From assembly GCA_018725485.1 (NCBI GenBank), contig QLUP01000008.1, positions 1-21,523 of the forward strand: a stretch of 21,523 bases of DNA, in the 5' to 3' direction. Source of the stretch: Candidatus Lithacetigena glycinireducens (GTDB lineage: Bacteria > Coprothermobacterota > HKB111). Shown here piece by piece: positions 11,873 through 21,464 of this stretch. The notes under the pieces were generated by a model. That model saw only the letters and a list, made by a program, of their open reading frames with translations, searched no databases and was not told the origin of the DNA. Positions within the stretch are counted from its first letter, which is position 1, and every line of letters starts with the position of its first letter. The position numbers and the translations under genes were made by a program.

Positions 11873-11968
11873 TGGCGGGAGTATGTGAGAATCGAACTCA
11901 CCACAGGTGGAACACACCTGCCACTGGATTTGAAGTCCAGGAGGGACACCAGCGCCCCATCTACTCCC
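11873..11968 (-). tRNA. selC: tRNA-Sec (UCA), selenocysteine tRNA
   Basis: Read on the minus strand this 96-base gene folds as a selenocysteine tRNA. The acceptor stem is GGGAGTA with TACTCCC, followed by G and an encoded CCA. The anticodon arm is CTGGA, loop CTTCAAA, TCCAG, giving anticodon UCA (plus-strand TGA at 11931-11933), which reads UGA. The D stem is extended, the variable arm is long (CAGGTG paired with CACCTG), and the T arm is GTGAG, TTCGATT, CTCAC. The long variable arm, extended D stem and UCA anticodon together are specific to tRNA-Sec. It is charged with serine and converted to Sec-tRNA by SelA using selenophosphate from SelD. It stands divergently beside selD and convergently to the FakA-like gene. 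Confidence 0.95.
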
Positions 11969-12053: not shown

Positions 12054-13094
12054 ATGAGGTTAACCGATTTTGCTAAAGCTGCTGGTTGAGCTGCTAAAGT
12101 TGGACCAGGAGACCTCGGTGAGGTCTTAAGCAGCTTAAAATTACCTCATAACCCCAAACTGCTTTCTCATTGGGAAGGGTGGGAAAACGCCACCGTATAT
12201 TCTACTAAGGGAAATACGGTGATGGTGCAAACTGTCGATATGATTACCCCCATTCTTGATGACCCTTATGATTTTGGGCAGGTAGTAGCTGCTAATGCTA
12301 TAAGTGATATTTATACCATGGGCTGTTTGCCTGAATTAGCACTTAACATAATCGCTTTTCCCTGCTCGTCATTACCCATAGAAATTTTAAGCTTGATTCT
12401 TGCAGGTGGGCAGGATAAAGCAGCGGAAGCTGGAGTATTGATTGGAGGAGGGCATACCATAGAAGATGTCGAGATTAAATATGGTATGGTGGTCACAGGA
12501 TTTGGTACTAAAGATAACCTGTGGAGAGTTGGTGGGGCTAAAGAAGGCGATGTATTGATACTTACTAAACCTATTGGCACTGGTATTGTTTCCACCGCCC
12601 TTAAAGCTGGCGAAGCTCCCCTGGAGATAATAAATAGCGTAGCTGATTCTATGAAGAAACTGAACAATTTACCGGTGTTATTGAAAAATCATAGGATTAA
12701 AATTAAGGCTTGTACTGATGTTACTGGTTTTGGCTTGATGGTTCATGCTCTTAGTATGATAAATAAGTCAAAGTTAGGTATTAAAATGATTGCTCGCGAA
12801 ATACCCATTTTTAAAAAAGCTAATGAATTAGCTTTAAGCGGGTTTGTTCCCGGGGGAGCTTATAGAAATGAAAAATGGGCGTCGCCTAAAGTAATTATTA
12901 ATGCTACCCCTGATAATATGCTTTTTGACCCGATACTGCTTTATGATCCGCAAACTTCTGGAGGATTGCTGGTAGCGGTTGAACAAAATAATGCTGAATT
13001 GCTTTTGCTGATTTTAAAAGAAGCAGGATTTTCAGCTGCCTCTATCATAGGTTCATTTGTTAGCGATGAAGATGAAAGAATAGAAATTATCTGA
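12054..13094 (+). CDS. selD: Selenide, water dikinase, itself a selenoprotein (Sec12 by in-frame TGA)
   Basis: Makes selenophosphate, the selenium donor for Sec-tRNA synthesis, from selenide and ATP. Translation from ATG 12054 (AGGAGG at 12043-12048) reads MRLTDFAKAAGU with the TGA codon 12 at 12087-12089, then AAKVGPGDL. The TGA is where E. coli SelD has catalytic Cys17, and Lys15 three residues on corresponds to catalytic Lys20. A hairpin follows at once. Reading TGA as stop would leave only a late TTG or ATG start and drop the active site. The remainder (MITPILDDPYDFGQVVAANAISDIYTMG split by normal spacing, GGGHTIED, TDVTGFGL, YDPQTSGGLL) is complete; total 346 residues. yedF begins 15 bases later. 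Confidence 0.95.
12087..12135 (+). promoter_or_regulatory. Bacterial SECIS element in selD mRNA
   Basis: Immediately after the TGA, a two-part stem-loop can form. The lower stem pairs GCTGCT (12090-12095) with AGCAGC (12129-12134). The upper stem pairs AGACCTC (12110-12116) with GAGGTCT (12120-12126), leaving a GGT loop at 12117-12119. A short perfect stem with G and U in the apical loop, 3' of the UGA and inside the coding region, is the pattern recognised by SelB in bacteria. The loop lies 28-30 bases past the UGA. Confidence 0.8.
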
Positions 13095-13827: not shown

Positions 13828-14976
13828 ATGATTTACCTTGATAATGCAGCTACCACCTACCCTAAACCAGAAAAGGTTATTGAGACTATTAACTACCATT
13901 TGAGAAATCTTGGAGGTAGCACAGGAAGGGGTCACTATCAATGGGCCCTGGAGATAAGCAGAAAAGTCTATGCAGTTAGAACGAAGGTAGCTCAACTTCT
14001 GAGTATAGATGATCCTCTAAGAGTTATTTTTACCTATAACTCAACCTATGCTATAAATATGGTTTTAAAAGGACTGTTAAAACCTGGGGACAGGGTAATC
14101 CTTTCTTCTATGGAGCATAACGCTGTAGTTAGACCGTTGAGAAGTCTCGAAAAAAAAGGTGTTGAGCTTGTTTTTATACCCTGTGGCCCTGAAGGGGTAA
14201 TTGATCTGGAAACCCTGAGAAATGAAGCGCGACTGGGAGCAAGGCTGATTACGGTTTTAGGAGCTTCTAATGTATCGGGTACGATTCAGCCCTTAGCAGA
14301 GATTGGAAAAATAGCCCATGATAATAACATTTTATTTTTAGTAGACGGAGCGCAATTAGCTGGGTTGGAGCGTATAGAAGTAGATAACTGGCATATAGAT
14401 GCTTTTGCTTTTACCGGCCACAAAGGGTTATATGGACCTCAAGGGACCGGAGGTGTAGCTCTGTCATCCAGGCTTGCCCGTTTATTAGAACCGCTCATTG
14501 AAGGAGGAACAGGTAGCCTATCAGAAGAGGAATATCAACCTGATTTTTTACCGGATAAATTTGAGTCAGGCACCCTGAATTCTGCAGGAATAATAGGTTT
14601 GGGAGCAGGAGTAGATTTCCTGTTAGAAAAGGGCATATCTTCAGTTGTTTCACATGAAAGGAAGCTTCGTGATTTTTTAATAGAGAAATTAGTAAGGGAA
14701 AAAAATATTAATTTATTCGGACCCTTAGACTCACAGAAAACCACCGGGATCCTTTCTTTTAATATAAAAAACAAAGATATATCCACAATTACCAATATTC
14801 TTGACAGAGATTATGGGATAATGGTCAGGGCAGGACTACACTGTTCTCCTCTTGCCCATAAAAGCCTGGGTTCCTTTCCTATTGGCACCATAAGGTGTAG
14901 TTTTAGCCTTTTTAATACCCAGGATGAAGTACTATTCTTTTCTAAATCTTTAAATGAGATTTTAAGGAGGGGTTAA
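13828..14976 (+). CDS. Cysteine desulfurase-family aminotransferase (class V)
   Basis: A 382-residue PLP enzyme of the NifS/CsdA type. It begins MIYLDNAATTYPKP, has a PLP-stacking and binding core (SSMEHNAVVRPL; DGAQLAGLERI), the Schiff-base lysine Lys199 in FTGHKGLYGPQG, and a catalytic cysteine, Cys339, in RAGLHCSPLAHK. Such enzymes release sulfur from cysteine, or selenium from selenocysteine, as an enzyme-bound persulfide or selenide. Being between selD/yedF/DUF3343 and selA argues that it supplies selenium for selenophosphate, though general sulfur delivery cannot be excluded. Its stop codon abuts the selA start. Confidence 0.88.
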   Translation: MIYLDNAATTYPKPEKVIETINYHLRNLGGSTGRGHYQWALEISRKVYAVRTKVAQLLSIDDPLRVIFTYNSTYAINMVLKGLLKPGDRVILSSMEHNAVVRPLRSLEKKGVELVFIPCGPEGVIDLETLRNEARLGARLITVLGASNVSGTIQPLAEIGKIAHDNNILFLVDGAQLAGLERIEVDNWHIDAFAFTGHKGLYGPQGTGGVALSSRLARLLEPLIEGGTGSLSEEEYQPDFLPDKFESGTLNSAGIIGLGAGVDFLLEKGISSVVSHERKLRDFLIEKLVREKNINLFGPLDSQKTTGILSFNIKNKDISTITNILDRDYGIMVRAGLHCSPLAHKSLGSFPIGTIRCSFSLFNTQDEVLFFSKSLNEILRRG

Positions 14977-16341
14977 ATGAAAGAAAACCAGTTGAGGAAA
15001 TTACCTTCTATGGAAACCATTTTATCTAATCCTGTGGTTATGGAACTCTATAAACAGTACCCCAGGAATCTGGTAAAAGAAGCCATCAACGATGCCTTGG
15101 AAAAAATAAGGCTCGAGTCTAAAAATAATCCTGAACAGGATATTTCAATACAGAACATTATGAATGAAGTTAGGCAAATCCTATCTAAAAGGAAAATAAG
15201 GAAAGTTTTAAATGGGACGGGAGTGCTACTTCATACCAACCTGGGAAGAAGCCCACTGCCAATGATATCCTGTATAAAAGTTTTGGAAGTTATGAGCTCT
15301 TATTCTAACCTGGAGTATAATCTATTTTCAGGGGAGCGAGGAAGCAGACTGGAAAATATAGAATATTTAATAACTAAATTGACCGGGGGAGAGTCTGCCT
15401 TCGTGGTAAATAACAATGCAGGCGCTGTATTGTTGGTTCTTTCTACTTTTTGTAGAGACAAAGAGGTAATTGTTTCCCGTGGAGAGTTAGTAGAAATCGG
15501 GGGTTCATTTCGTGTCCCGGACATTATGCTGCAAAGTGGTGCTAAATTGGTAGAAGTGGGAACAACCAATATTACCCGCATTAGCGATTATGCAAAGGCA
15601 ATTAATGAAAACACCTCCTCTCTTCTTAAAGTACACCCCAGTAACTTTTCTATTAAGGGATATACCCAGCAGGTTGATTTAAAGGAACTGGTCAGTTTAG
15701 GGAGAGATAAAAACCTTATTACTATTGAAGACCTGGGAAGTGGACTCTTGAAAAATTACCCTATAGAATTTTTAAAACCTGAACCTACAGTTGAAGATAG
15801 TATTAAGGCAGGGGTAGATTTGGTTCTTTTTTCTGGCGATAAACTGTTAGGTGGTCCTCAATGCGGAATAATAATCGGCAAAAATCATTTAATAAAAATA
15901 ATAAAACAGCATCCATTATCACGAGCCTTGAGAATTGACAAAATGACAGTGGCAGCATTGGAAGCAGTTCTGGAAATATATTTTGATGAAAATAGATTAT
16001 TTTCAGAATCACCTCTTTTCCGCATGTTATTAATGGATGTCAGCGAATTAAGGAAAAGAGCTCGCTATATTCTGAGAAAGGTTATTAACAAAGAATATTT
16101 TAAAATTATTGAGGGTGTATCTACTACTGGGGGTGGTTCTTTACCAGATTGTGCAATTCCTACCCTGCTGATTACAGTTAAAAAAGAAGGTAAAACAGCA
16201 GAAGAGTTGTCTATTTATTTTAGAAACACCAACCCTCCTTTGATTGGTACCATCAATAATGATACTTTTACTATAGACTTGAGGACGATTTTAGAGATCC
16301 AGGATGAGGAGCTAATCACCTCGCTGAACAAGGTTTTATAG
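14977..16341 (+). CDS. selA: L-seryl-tRNA(Sec) selenium transferase
   Basis: Converts Ser-tRNA-Sec to Sec-tRNA-Sec with selenophosphate, using PLP. The 454-residue protein shows the SelA N-terminal helical region (RKLPSMETILSNP), the LNGTGVLLHTNLGRSPL segment, VVNNNAGAVLL, the EIGGSFRVPDIM stretch, and the PLP lysine Lys289 in LFSGDKLLGGPQCG. The C-terminal TTGGGSLPD is also conserved. A strong AAGGAGGGG site precedes the ATG, which directly follows the upstream stop. selB follows after one base. It is the bacterial one-step enzyme, consistent with the bacterial-type tRNA-Sec and SECIS seen here. Confidence 0.96.
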   Translation: MKENQLRKLPSMETILSNPVVMELYKQYPRNLVKEAINDALEKIRLESKNNPEQDISIQNIMNEVRQILSKRKIRKVLNGTGVLLHTNLGRSPLPMISCIKVLEVMSSYSNLEYNLFSGERGSRLENIEYLITKLTGGESAFVVNNNAGAVLLVLSTFCRDKEVIVSRGELVEIGGSFRVPDIMLQSGAKLVEVGTTNITRISDYAKAINENTSSLLKVHPSNFSIKGYTQQVDLKELVSLGRDKNLITIEDLGSGLLKNYPIEFLKPEPTVEDSIKAGVDLVLFSGDKLLGGPQCGIIIGKNHLIKIIKQHPLSRALRIDKMTVAALEAVLEIYFDENRLFSESPLFRMLLMDVSELRKRARYILRKVINKEYFKIIEGVSTTGGGSLPDCAIPTLLITVKKEGKTAEELSIYFRNTNPPLIGTINNDTFTIDLRTILEIQDEELITSLNKVL

Positions 16342-16342
16342 A

Positions 16343-18253
16343 ATGCGAAACTACCTTGTGGTCGGTACTGCTGGCCATATTGACCATGGAAAAACCCGGT
16401 TAGTTAAATCCCTGACCGGTATGGAAACCGACCGCCTGAAGGAAGAAAAAGAAAGAGGAATATCCATAGAACTTGGTTATGCATACTTAAAATTACCTTC
16501 AGGAGTTATTGCTGGATTTATTGATGTACCAGGTCATGAGCGATTGGTGAGAAAAATGATAAGCGGGTGCTATAGTATAGATTTATCTTTACTGGTTATA
16601 GCTGCTGATGAAGGATTTATGCCTCAAACTAATGAGCATTTGGCAATATTGAATTTATTAGGATTACCAAAGGGAATTGTAGTAGTAACCAAAATTGATC
16701 TGGTAAGCGATAACGACCTTCTTATTCTGGAAGAGGAAATTAAGGAAAGAGTAAAAAACAGTTTTTTAGAAAATGCACCCATTGTCTATACTTCAACTGT
16801 TACCAATATGGGTATTAGTAATCTAATTGAATTAATTGACGGGTTTTCTCATACTTTACCAGTTAGAGATACCTCTGGACCATTTAGACTTTTTATTGAT
16901 AGGGTGTTTTCTCTACCAGGTTTTGGGACTGTAGTTACCGGAACAGCATTCAATGGGGTGGTTAAAAAAGAGCAGAATATAGAGATACTTCCCAAAGGAC
17001 ATATTTCAAGAGTAAGGTCAATAGAGGTTCACTATCAATCAGTTGAAGAAGCAGTTGCCGGTGAAAGGGTAGCTTTGAATTTACCTGATGTAAAAGTTAG
17101 TCAGATAAAGAGAGGCGAGGTAATTTGTACCCCGCAAGCTTACAAACCAACATCTTTACTTGATTTAAAAATTGAATTGCTTCCAACCCAAAAAAACATC
17201 CTGTTGAAACATGGTCAGAGAATAAGGTTTTACCATGGGTCCAGCGAAGTTTTAGGAAGGGTATTGTTTACAGGTTTAAAAGAAATTCGCCCAACTGAAA
17301 CCACTATTGCACAGATTTATCTGGAGGAACCTGTAGTTGCTCGTGAAGGAGACAGGTTTATAATTCGCAGTTACTCTCCGGTAAATACTATTGGAGGTGG
17401 TTTTGTCCTTGACCCTTATGCCATTAAAAGAAGGAAAAAAACCATTCTTGATACTGTAGTTAGTTTAGAAGACCCTGTTTCACGATACATAAAGATTCTC
17501 AATAAAGAAGATAGTTTTATGATTGATATTCCAGCCTTTTCTTTTATCTCCCAAAAGAACGAAGAAGAAATAATTAAGGAAGTGTTAAATTCCGATAAAT
17601 TCATTCTTCTTCCCCCGGAACAGCCATTCTACATCTCCTTGAAAGCAAGGTTTGAAGAAAATAAACTATTTGTGGAACAAAAACTGCAAGATTATCACCA
17701 GGCTAATCCTCATTCTCCAGGTTTTTTACTGGAAGAGCTAAGAAATAAACTTACCGGTTTAGATGTGAAGCAGTTTCGTGTTTTTATTAAGTACCTGGTT
17801 GAACAGGGGACTGTGGAAGTTAACGGTCAATTAGTAAGATTAAAAGGATTGGAAGCTGTATTTAGCGGTGAATGGCTTGAAGGTAGAAATACCTTGCTTA
17901 AGTTAATTGGTGAGAATAAGTTTTCCCCACCTACTATTAAAGAGCTGGTTGAAATAATGGATAAGAGGGGATGGAAGAAAGATAAACTGCATAGTTTGCT
18001 TAAAGCCATGGTAGAAGCAGGTGATATTATTCGGGTTTCGGAAGAATTATGGTTCTTAACCTCTGTATTTGAAAACATAAAGAAAGATTTAATTGATTAT
18101 CTTTTGAAAAAAGTAGAAATAAGCCCGGGGGATTTTAAAGATTTGTTTAATATTTCTCGAAAATATGCTATCCCTTTGCTTGAATGGTTTGATAACCAAA
18201 AAATTACTTTTCGGGAAGGAAATGTTCGCAAATTAAGAACCAAACAAAAGTAA
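16343..18253 (+). CDS. selB: Selenocysteine-specific translation elongation factor SelB
   Basis: GTPase that carries Sec-tRNA-Sec to the ribosome at UGA codons marked by a SECIS hairpin. The 636-residue protein has EF-Tu-like domains I-III at the N-terminus with the GTP-binding motifs GHIDHGKT (11-18), DVPGH (61-65) and TKID (116-119), followed by a C-terminal region of winged helices (about residues 375-636) that binds the SECIS RNA. Length is normal. There is one base between the selA stop and this ATG and only a weak ribosome binding site, so coupled translation is likely. Its stop codon lies inside the terminator stem at 18249-18275. Confidence 0.95.
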
Positions 18254-18441: not shown

Positions 18442-19131
18442 TTGATTGAGTTTAAGAACATAACCAAGTCTTATAATAATGGTGGCCCTCCTGCAGTAGC
18501 CAATATTTCCTTACGCATAGAACGAGGCGAATTTATTTTTCTGGTTGGTCCCAGTGGAGCAGGGAAGAGTACACTTATTAAATTATTATTCCGGGAAATT
18601 ATGCCCACCGCCGGTAGGTTATTTTTTCTAAAAAGAAATATTACCGAGTTTACGGAGAGCGAACTTCTGAGATATCGTAGGCGGATTGGGATGGTCTTCC
18701 AGGACTTTCGGTTATTGAAACAAAAAACCGTTTATGAAAATGTAGCCTTTGCCCTGGAGGTTTTAGGGCAATCTCCCAGGAAAATCAGGCAGAAAGTACC
18801 TTTAGCCTTAGAGAAAGTTGGACTGACAGGCAAGGAGAAGGCTTTCCCTTCCGAGTTATCTGGAGGAGAAGCCCAAAGGGTAGGAATTGCCAGGGCTATT
18901 GTTAAAGATCCCTTAATTATCCTGGCTGATGAGCCTACTGGAAATGTGGACAGGGATAATTCAAAACAAATTATGAAACTTTTTGAAGGCATAAACGAAG
19001 GTGGTACTACGGTGATTGTTGCTACTCACGCCTGGGAATTAGTTAACCAATTGCAAAAAAGAGTTATAGCTCTAAAAAAAGGTCGTATTATTAGAGACGA
19101 GCAAAATGGAGGTTACGACACTGAATATTAA
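18442..19131 (+). CDS. ftsE: Cell division ATP-binding protein FtsE
   Basis: ATPase of the FtsEX complex, which passes ATP-driven conformational changes through FtsX to peptidoglycan hydrolases or their activators outside the cell. The 229-residue protein has Walker A GPSGAGKST at 36-44, Q-loop VFQDFRLL, ABC signature LSGGEAQRVGIARA, Walker B IILADEPTGNVD and the switch histidine in ATHAWELV. The FRLL and ADEPTGNVD wording is typical of FtsE rather than of other ABC ATPases. It starts with TTG at 18442, seven bases after AAAGGAG. It overlaps ftsX by up to 26 bases. Confidence 0.94.
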   Translation: MIEFKNITKSYNNGGPPAVANISLRIERGEFIFLVGPSGAGKSTLIKLLFREIMPTAGRLFFLKRNITEFTESELLRYRRRIGMVFQDFRLLKQKTVYENVAFALEVLGQSPRKIRQKVPLALEKVGLTGKEKAFPSELSGGEAQRVGIARAIVKDPLIILADEPTGNVDRDNSKQIMKLFEGINEGGTTVIVATHAWELVNQLQKRVIALKKGRIIRDEQNGGYDTEY

Positions 19132-20005
19132 CTCACTGAGATACTGTTTGCGACAGAGTTTTATTTCAATTTACAGAAATATCTGGCTGGTTTTAGTTAC
19201 CGCAGGAATAATTGCTGTTTCACTTTCCATATTTGGTGGGTTTCTTCTTATAGCTATAAATACCGGTCAAATTATCAGCAATGTTGAGTCTAACATTGAG
19301 ATTGCTGTTTTTCTCCACAATGATGCTAATGTAAAAGAGATACAATTTAAACTTGATAATCTTAAAGGTGTTAATAACTATACCTTTGTACCTAAGGAAC
19401 AGGGACTGGAGGATTTTAGTAAGTTAATGAACAACAGGATACCTTTAGAAGGGTTAAGCGGTGAGAATAACCCTTTACCAGACCTTTTTCGAGTTAGAGC
19501 CACCAGGGCTGAACTGGTTCCTGAACTGGCTCGTGAAATTCAAGGTTATCCTGGAGTAGAGACTGTTGAATATGGTGAAAAATTAATAGGTATGTTGAAT
19601 AGAGTTACAAGCTGGTTGAATACAGTCTTTCTGGTTATGAGCACTCTTCTTGCTCTGGGAGCAATGTTCTTGATTATAACTACCATCCGCATTTCGGTTT
19701 TGTCTCGCCAGGAAGAAATAGGGATTATGAAATACTTAGGTGCGAGCAACTCTTTTATCCGTTTCCCCTTCATTCTGGAAGGGATGGTGATAGGGTGGAT
19801 TGGAACTCTTTCTGCTACTTTGGTACTTGGTGCAGTTTATTATCAATTAGTAGTCTCACTCCAGCATGAAGTTCTGGCTTTTTTTATACAGCCTGTAACA
19901 GACATAGACATACTCCTACCAATTTTTATAGGTCTATTGGTCATGGGAACTTTACTGGGTGGAATAGGTAGTATGGTGTCTATACATAGACATCTACAGG
20001 TTTAA
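19106..20005 (+). CDS. ftsX: Cell division protein FtsX
   Basis: Membrane partner of FtsE. The protein of 299 residues has the FtsX pattern: an N-terminal membrane helix (about 25-50), an extracellular domain (about 55-165, beginning SNVESNIEIAVFLHNDA and containing FVPKEQGLEDFSKLMN), then three further membrane helices with the conserved IRISVLSRQEEIGIMKYLGASN loop between. The extracellular domain is where hydrolase activators such as PcsB dock. The start is uncertain. The ATG at 19106 has only a weak site upstream, while GGAGG at 19108-19112 overlaps that ATG and would serve a CTG at 19121, in frame five codons later. The gene is followed after one base by the PcsB-like fusion. Confidence 0.92.
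   Translation: MEVTTLNINSLRYCLRQSFISIYRNIWLVLVTAGIIAVSLSIFGGFLLIAINTGQIISNVESNIEIAVFLHNDANVKEIQFKLDNLKGVNNYTFVPKEQGLEDFSKLMNNRIPLEGLSGENNPLPDLFRVRATRAELVPELAREIQGYPGVETVEYGEKLIGMLNRVTSWLNTVFLVMSTLLALGAMFLIITTIRISVLSRQEEIGIMKYLGASNSFIRFPFILEGMVIGWIGTLSATLVLGAVYYQLVVSLQHEVLAFFIQPVTDIDILLPIFIGLLVMGTLLGGIGSMVSIHRHLQV
19108..19112 (+). promoter_or_regulatory. Ribosome binding site that may set the ftsX start at CTG 19121
   Basis: GGAGG inside ftsE covers the last base of ATG 19106 and stands eight bases before the in-frame CTG at 19121. Either start gives a complete protein; the difference is five residues. Confidence 0.4.
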
Positions 20006-20006
20006 C

Positions 20007-21464
20007 ATGGAAATACGGGATTCTAAAAAACACCGTCTCTGGATTACAACTGTCTTATTGGTTGTTTTAATTATATCTATTTTAAGTATTTTATATAGCC
20101 ATACCTATGCTTCTATTGAAGATATCAAAAAGAAAGTTGAAAGTACCCGAGCGGAAATAATTGAACTGGAAAAAATAATAAAAGCCTTAGATGATTCCAT
20201 CAAAAATAGAGAAAAAAGGATTGAGGAACTAAGCCAGGAGTACCTGGAAACGGAAACTCAGCTAAAAGTGTTAGAAGTAGAACTTGTCCAATCAGAATCC
20301 AGGTTGAAAGAGAAAAATCGGATTTTTGCCGGTCGAGTACGCAGTGCTTATATCAAGGGATGGACTTCTTACCTGGAATTATTCCTGGAGTCAGAAAATT
20401 TTGGCGATGTAATTATCAGGATGGCATACTTAACCAGAATTCTGAATCGGGATGCAGAATTGATTAATTCAGTTAAAAATGAACAGGCGTTAATAAAAAA
20501 ACGAAAAACAGAAATTGCTAGTAAACGCCAAAAACTCCTGGAACTCAGAAGTCAGAAGGATGGAGAATACCGAAATCTTGTTGATCAGCGTCGCGAGAAA
20601 GATAACCTACTGGCATCAGTTAAAAAAAGACTGGCTGTTGAATTAGTAAAAATTACACCACAAGCAGAGCGTAAGCCTGTATATGGTATTGTTATTGATA
20701 ATCACCCCCGTGCCAGACCTCAGCACGGTCTGGCAAAAGCAAGTTTAATATATGAGTATGAAGTGGAAGGGGGAATAACACGCTATTTAGCTCTTTTTTC
20801 TTCGTTTCCCACTAAGGTGGGTCCCATACGCAGTGCCCGGAGCCACAGTATAATACTGGCTATGGAAAATAGCGTCAATTATATTTATGCCAGTGCTGGT
20901 ACCGATATCCTGATAAAAATCAAAGATTGGAAAGTAAACAGTACGAATGCTATAACTTCAGGTAATCCCAGTTTTTTCCGAGATTCTTCCCGAAAAGCTC
21001 CCCATAATCTTTATGTAAATCTGGCTACACTGGGTGTAGAAGAACCTTCAAAAGAAGTAGTCATTCGACCAGCATATTTAAGCCGACAGGGCAACGAAGC
21101 TTCTGAAGTGATTCTGGAATACAGCTCAATTTACAGTGTCAGATATGAATATTTATCAAAAAAGGGTGTATACAGGCGGTATGTCAATGGTGAACTTCAC
21201 CGTGATGCTACTAAGGAGGAAATTCTCGCCCGTAACATTATCGTGCAGTATGTGCCACACGGGTTAGATATTCTTAGAAGACCTACTCCTAAGTTAGTTG
21301 GTAAAGGAAAAATTGAATTTTACTCGCAAGGTCAACAATTCAGCGGGACCTGGATAAAAGATAGCAATACTTCACCAACACGCTTTTACTACCAGGATGG
21401 GCGTGAATTAGAACGCGTGTATGGTCAAACCTGGATTCAGATTGTCCGGATTCCAAGAAAGTAA
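20007..21464 (+). CDS. FtsEX-linked PcsB-like coiled-coil protein fused to a DUF3048 (YerB-like) domain
   Basis: A 485-residue exported or membrane-anchored protein. Residues 11-32 are a hydrophobic helix ending SHTYAS, possibly cleaved after TYA. Residues 37-105 and 145-210 are two long coiled-coil segments separated by the hinge RVRSAYIKGWTSYLELFLES and NFGDVIIRMAYLTRI (110-145), closely resembling PcsB/EnvC-type activators. Residues 223-485 match DUF3048: YGIVIDNHPRARPQ (226-239), YEVEGGITRYLALF, VGPIRSARSH (271-280), FFRDSSRKAPHNLY (323-336), then a second part with RYVNGELHRDA, IIVQYVP and GTWIKDSNTSPTRFY up to GQTWIQIV. The CHAP or M23 domain that usually follows the coiled coil is absent. 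It lies one base after ftsX, so control by FtsEX is likely. DUF3048 has no known activity that I can state. Confidence 0.85.
   Translation: MEIRDSKKHRLWITTVLLVVLIISILSILYSHTYASIEDIKKKVESTRAEIIELEKIIKALDDSIKNREKRIEELSQEYLETETQLKVLEVELVQSESRLKEKNRIFAGRVRSAYIKGWTSYLELFLESENFGDVIIRMAYLTRILNRDAELINSVKNEQALIKKRKTEIASKRQKLLELRSQKDGEYRNLVDQRREKDNLLASVKKRLAVELVKITPQAERKPVYGIVIDNHPRARPQHGLAKASLIYEYEVEGGITRYLALFSSFPTKVGPIRSARSHSIILAMENSVNYIYASAGTDILIKIKDWKVNSTNAITSGNPSFFRDSSRKAPHNLYVNLATLGVEEPSKEVVIRPAYLSRQGNEASEVILEYSSIYSVRYEYLSKKGVYRRYVNGELHRDATKEEILARNIIVQYVPHGLDILRRPTPKLVGKGKIEFYSQGQQFSGTWIKDSNTSPTRFYYQDGRELERVYGQTWIQIVRIPRK

Follow-up and report, generated by a model that had tools for sequence, protein, structure and literature searches.

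The window analysed here, a 21,523-nucleotide stretch of DNA from Candidatus Lithacetigena glycinireducens, probably encodes a dedicated second FtsEX machine; its coiled-coil partner has a DUF3048 (YerB-type) domain in the position occupied by an M23 peptidase in the canonical partner. FtsEX is a bacterial membrane switch that normally triggers wall-cutting enzymes, and the second FtsEX most likely gates a wall effector that is not a peptidase. At the level of sequence, the parts of this machine, its three-gene order, its paralogy within the genome, the single origin of the fused lineage and the conservation of the DUF3048 residues are established. The original prediction had recognized the coil, the replacement of a peptidase by DUF3048 and the link to ftsEX, all of which stand, and had missed that this FtsEX is a second, paralogous pair.

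The three genes of the module lie on the forward strand. The ATPase gene ftsE of the second pair (18442..19131; TIGR02673, 271.4 bits for a cut-off of 264.85) encodes intact Walker A (GPSGAGKS), signature (LSGGE) and Walker B (ILADE) motifs, as read from the sequence, and ftsX (19106..20005; NF038347, 259.9 bits for a cut-off of 225) encodes an extracellular domain (FtsX_ECD, PF18075, E 5e-19); both calls exceed the curated NCBIfam cut-offs and thus qualify the genes as an FtsEX pair. The stop codon of ftsX occupies positions 20003-20005, and the open reading frame of the 485-aa coiled coil-DUF3048 fusion protein (20007..21464), the proposed effector of the second FtsEX, starts one base later, as originally described; the secreted PcsB-type coil is therefore encoded beside ftsX, as is expected of an FtsEX-coupled partner. 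Sigma-70 and terminator scans gave results near chance level. Just upstream of the ftsEX-fusion genes, the window holds a complete selenocysteine cluster made up of a selenocysteine tRNA gene (11873-11968, reverse strand), the adjoining selD (12054-13094, forward strand) and, at 13828-18253 on the forward strand, a TusA-like gene, a class-V aminotransferase (NifS-like) gene, selA and selB. Furthermore, selD is apparently itself a selenoprotein gene, with an in-frame TGA at 12087-12089 (context KAAG*AAKVGPGDL), so that the listed start of its reading frame, 12219, is too late.

The fusion protein begins with a signal peptide or membrane anchor (residues 1-35, 20007..20111, from the translation and the model), in which a hydrophobic stretch at residues 11-32 ends in TYA-S and a lipobox is lacking, there being no cysteine near the signal end. 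A PcsB/EnvC-type antiparallel coiled-coil hairpin follows (residues 37-216, 20115..20654, from Pfam and the model), with CC_PcsB (PF24568) matching residues 95-165 (20289-20501) at E 4.2e-13 and 49.4 bits for a cut-off of 27. The remainder consists of the DUF3048 N-terminal domain (residues 219-342, 20661..21032; PF11258, E 4.8e-33) and the DUF3048 C-terminal domain (DUF3048_C, residues 370-477, 21114..21437; PF17479, E 3.2e-21), which score 114.8 and 76.3 bits, respectively, against Pfam cut-offs of 25. Both halves are thus what they had been proposed to be. Pfam searches up to E 1 found no M23, CHAP, NlpC or other peptidase domain in the protein and DUF3048 as the sole family beyond the coil, which bears out the replacement of the peptidase and does not place the protein among hydrolases or LytM proteins.

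A PDB sequence search matched residues 209-480 to YerB (2psb) and, weakly, the N-terminal half to coiled-coil metallopeptidase and PcsB-type chains. The full-length AlphaFold model, built from nine homologues (pLDDT 71), comprises a signal helix (residues 4-30), a helical hairpin (37-116 and 132-216) and a domain rich in beta structure, and its residues 218-484 superpose on YerB 2psb with Z 25.8 and an rmsd of 3.2 over 257 residues. For the coil of the model, structural matches were obtained with FtsX-bound EnvC (6tpi, Z 12.1) and with the FtsEX-EnvC complex of Vibrio (8tzl, Z 12.0), at values that long helices commonly reach. Because long helices match many structures, these matches are weak taken alone, and the coil assignment rests on the Pfam match and the gene context, not on Z.

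This gene arrangement extends well beyond the window. All three genes recur in a congener (G001), at 76-89% identity to those of the window, and eight more MAGs, from Dethiobacter and other Bacillota, encode the fusion with 47-57% identity. Among 398 genomes drawn from Dethiobacter's phylum, at least 20 encode the full-length fusion, 17 of them new, this number being a lower bound since at most four candidates were scored per genome. The total is thereby 27 fusion genomes (the window's, G001, the eight MAGs and the 17 new survey genomes), those named being MAGs, and such a recurrence indicates that the fusion is not due to chance. It lies directly 3' of ftsE-ftsX at 25 of the 26 assessable loci (the window, G001, seven of the eight MAG loci and 16 survey loci), the locus L124 at a contig edge having been left out of the count. 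At the exception, L018 in G061, the fusion is found among carbon-monoxide dehydrogenase and heat-shock genes, away from any ftsEX. The predicted link to ftsEX is thus conserved in other genomes; an absent DUF3048, an absent coil and a fusion always remote from ftsEX, each of which would have told against the prediction, were all looked for and none was observed. The plasmids searched hold DUF3048 alone or the coil alone and no fusion, and the viral contigs searched yielded no further DUF3048 sequences. As for other neighbours, three related genomes encode a putative DUF4015 glycosyl hydrolase downstream of the fusion (L020 5713-7452, L103 9328-11040 and L104 7170-8849), and spoIVA (a 502-aa open reading frame) sits directly beside it on the opposite strand in G162 (L142 2373-5384).

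Contig C155 of the window's genome (83% complete) encodes another FtsX, within the gene order secA, prfB, ftsE, ftsX, coil-M23. The order secA-prfB-ftsE-ftsX is the usual one in Bacillota, secA and prfB being named here by reading of the sequences, and the canonical partner is a 382-aa coil-M23 protein in which the HxxxD and HLH metal motifs are present. The canonical ftsEX and coil-M23 genes of G001 are arranged in the same way. Two or more FtsX_ECD genes occur in 25 of the 27 fusion genomes; G061 and G064, possibly incomplete assemblies, have one FtsX each, and only the canonical FtsX was found in G061. Other families of the window's phylum (G002 to G008) have a single FtsX each, with a coil-M23 gene after ftsX at the two loci read (G002 and G004). 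The window ftsEX with its fusion is a second, paralogous FtsEX within one genome, and the presence of a canonical ftsEX with its coil-M23 in that same genome indicates that the fusion is not a substitute for the usual division hydrolase. The literature searched contained no report of a duplicated FtsEX, nor of a genome with two FtsEX, one of them bearing a new effector. Other copies were also encountered: G063 and G066 (L061 and L062) have a third FtsEX-like module, with a gene for a CC_PcsB protein of ~370 aa showing no recognised C-terminal domain, then ftsE and a divergent ftsX, and G301 has a third FtsX_ECD gene too. At L060 (5082-8175, in G067), the canonical ftsEX is followed by two tandem coil-M23 genes encoding long Ala/Glu/Arg-rich repeat linkers ahead of the peptidase.

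Maximum-likelihood analysis groups the 25 fusion-linked FtsX into a single clade (97/100; 99/95 in a second tree), distinct from their canonical counterparts in the same genomes. The sister of this clade is the FtsX of G111 (99/98), and that of G244 falls near; each is the single FtsX found in its genome, and both are partnered by coil-M23 proteins whose coils score E ~1e-43 to 1e-45 against the fusion model, the M23 motifs being intact in G111 and HLD replacing HLH in G244. As the sister FtsX is partnered by the same kind of coil bearing an intact M23, the tree and the domain comparison indicate that DUF3048 replaced the peptidase once, on an existing FtsEX-coil machine. On the simplest reading, a G111-like FtsEX-coil-M23 would have been duplicated or passed sideways before its M23 was replaced by DUF3048. 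Furthermore, the fusion-linked FtsX of the window nests in the Bacillota clade and the canonical one falls with the phylum of the window, a pattern that suggests horizontal gain of the module by the window's genus, canonical FtsX placements being on long branches and deep placements unsure.

DUF3048/YerB proteins are widespread in Bacillota and others, and in the literature searched DUF3048 appears in a single paper, as unassigned, and YerB in lists without a function. Modelled alone, again from nine sequences, the DUF3048 part (pLDDT 83, pTM 0.85) superposes on YerB 2psb with Z 27.8 and an rmsd of 3.0 over 258 residues (Foldseek E 1e-20), which is the only significant match in PDB structure searches with this part (next row, Z 2.6). 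A kinship with LCP phosphotransferases was also considered and gained no support, these searches returning only 2psb. Thirty positions are conserved both in the 27 fused domains and in 25 stand-alone ones. They include R237, Q239, R329, R391 and W449, as well as N232, E254, R259, R275, S276, R278, P332, H333 and N334, which are held by the motifs DNHP, VEGGITR, GPIRSAR and KAPHN put forward in the original prediction as a candidate site. H280 is particular to the fusions, a tyrosine being found there in 92% of stand-alone DUF3048. Given the residues shared by the two sets, the fused DUF3048 looks functional and not a relic. In G067, which keeps an intact fusion, a stand-alone DUF3048 lipoprotein gene (L069 5770-6862) is split into two overlapping frames by an apparent frameshift or assembly error.

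The interval between the coil tip and the start of DUF3048 is 115-116 residues in 9/9 fusions, and that between the coil tip and the M23 core is 145-155 residues in 9 of the 11 coil-M23 proteins (longer in the L060 tandem pair), which places DUF3048 ~30 residues nearer the coil than M23, the two domain starts not being strictly comparable. In EnvC and PcsB, a restraining or Ala-rich helix lies between coil and effector (PMC7668044); the AlphaFold model, of moderate quality, has none between the coil and DUF3048. The short interval would leave little room in the fusion for an EnvC-like restraining arm, within the limits set by moderate models and by domain starts that are not strictly equivalent. 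Conservation at the coil positions matching the FtsX-binding segments of EnvC does not significantly exceed that of the other coil positions (p 0.065). Among 22 aligned fusions, a doubtful LAC is seen in L020 and L023 only, whereas the stand-alone DUF3048 forms that were read have lipobox-like signals, and this difference suggests that the tether may have changed from lipid to FtsX.

The surroundings of stand-alone DUF3048 genes were surveyed at 52 loci. Their commonest neighbours are ybeY (20), a 7TM-HD phosphodiesterase gene (19), recO (18), dgkA on the upstream side (17), era (15) and cdd (15), which corresponds to a ybeY-dgkA-cdd-era operon; murJ is downstream at 5/52 loci, and in G062 DUF3048 is found between a family-4 glycosyltransferase gene and murJ. 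In Gram-positive bacteria, dgkA often encodes an undecaprenol kinase, and near stand-alone DUF3048 it is sometimes fused to PAP2. This context hints weakly at undecaprenyl-linked wall precursors, the hint being weak because these are conserved housekeeping operons and both dgkA and murJ are minority contexts.

The activity of the fused domain can be read in other ways. Since DUF3048 takes the place of the M23 peptidase on the same coil, it might be a cell-wall hydrolase of new fold and the second FtsEX just another hydrolase switch, all the more so as conserved polar residues are retained in fused and free domains and as the effector domains known on FtsEX coils are all hydrolases or hydrolase activators (PMC7668044, PMC11627006). 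We consider this unlikely: structural comparison returns YerB alone and no hydrolase, a missing match being weak evidence, and the short stretch between coil and domain appears to offer little space for the arm that holds hydrolases off, so that the hydrolase role raised in the original prediction gains nothing from the fold. An EnvC-like activator, recruiting and switching on a separate amidase or peptidase as EnvC does via its non-catalytic LytM domain (PMC7668044), is slightly more plausible but still doubtful. A DUF4015 putative glycosyl hydrolase or an SLT transglycosylase is indeed encoded next to the fusion in some genomes, but neighbours differ among genomes and no partner enzyme is conserved beside it, and the retained polar residues would resemble a ligand or active site more than a docking groove.

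Two further readings concern the module as a whole. That the second FtsEX and the fusion serve sporulation seems quite improbable, even though yerB is listed as Spo0A-controlled and as a core sporulation gene (PMC3416734) and spoIVA, which adjoins the fusion in G162, is present in 21 of the 25 fusion genomes outside the window's genus. As spoIVA is found in 336 of the 398 genomes of the background draw (84%), the fusion genomes show no enrichment, and a link via co-occurrence was rejected; moreover, the window genome and its congener are without spoIVA. The single locus away from ftsEX, in G061, could speak for an accidental gene fusion with no functional tie to FtsEX, but the survey of loci rules this out for practical purposes, given the adjacency at 25 of 26 loci, the co-divergence of FtsX as one clade and the constant coil-to-domain spacing in 9/9 fusions.

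We thus retain, as the probable explanation, a second FtsEX machine dedicated to a DUF3048 effector. One EnvC coil is bound by two FtsX extracellular domains, and the effector has been proposed to be released by an ATP-driven motion (PMC7668044); FtsEX of B. subtilis has a role in elongation, not division (PMC6705773). By analogy with the FtsEX-EnvC, PcsB and RipC literature, the coil of the fusion would dock on the extracellular domains of FtsX and would move when FtsE binds or cycles ATP, so as to expose, position or clamp DUF3048 outside the membrane. With low confidence, DUF3048 may have there the role that it has in the lipoprotein YerB, the FtsX tether replacing the lipid anchor, and this role could be to bind or process a cell-wall or undecaprenyl-linked ligand or to activate a wall enzyme, with no cutting of peptide bonds; we favour such handling of a wall or lipid-linked ligand, by binding or processing, over hydrolysis, again with little confidence. 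The likeliest arrangement would be a division of labour in wall metabolism, in which one FtsEX drives the M23 peptidase and the other DUF3048. More tentatively, FtsEX might here drive non-cutting work, the second FtsEX gating a domain of the YerB type that deals with glycans or with wall precursors linked to undecaprenyl; if true, a single cell would cut its wall with one FtsEX and use the other for supply, anchoring or sensing. The replacement of a peptidase by DUF3048 on an FtsEX coil, with its single origin, constitutes a natural domain-swap experiment, which ties DUF3048 to ATP-controlled wall work and makes this link testable.

FtsEX-PcsB of Streptococcus, FtsEX-CwlO of Bacillus and FtsEX-RipC of Mycobacterium have in common with the window's module FtsE, an FtsX that has an extracellular domain, and a coiled-coil partner that is secreted and ends in an effector domain, but the effector of the window is DUF3048 instead of CHAP, NlpC/P60 or M23, and the window's genome has this FtsEX pair in addition to a canonical one. 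The module resembles FtsEX-EnvC-AmiA/B of E. coli and Vibrio in its coil hairpin (6tpi, 8tzl) and in an effector domain that probably lacks peptidase activity of its own; it differs by the absence of LytM and by DUF3048 coming right after the coil, which would leave little room for a 50-residue restraining arm. With YerB of Bacillus subtilis (2psb), the fusion shares both DUF3048 domains, the fold and the conserved residues, whereas proteins of the YerB type carry a lipobox but lack a coil, and the fusion carries a PcsB coil but lacks a lipobox. The ftsEX and coil-M23 genes of G111 and G244 provide the sister FtsX and the closest coil; there, however, the FtsX is the only one found and the partner ends in M23, where the fusion ends in DUF3048.
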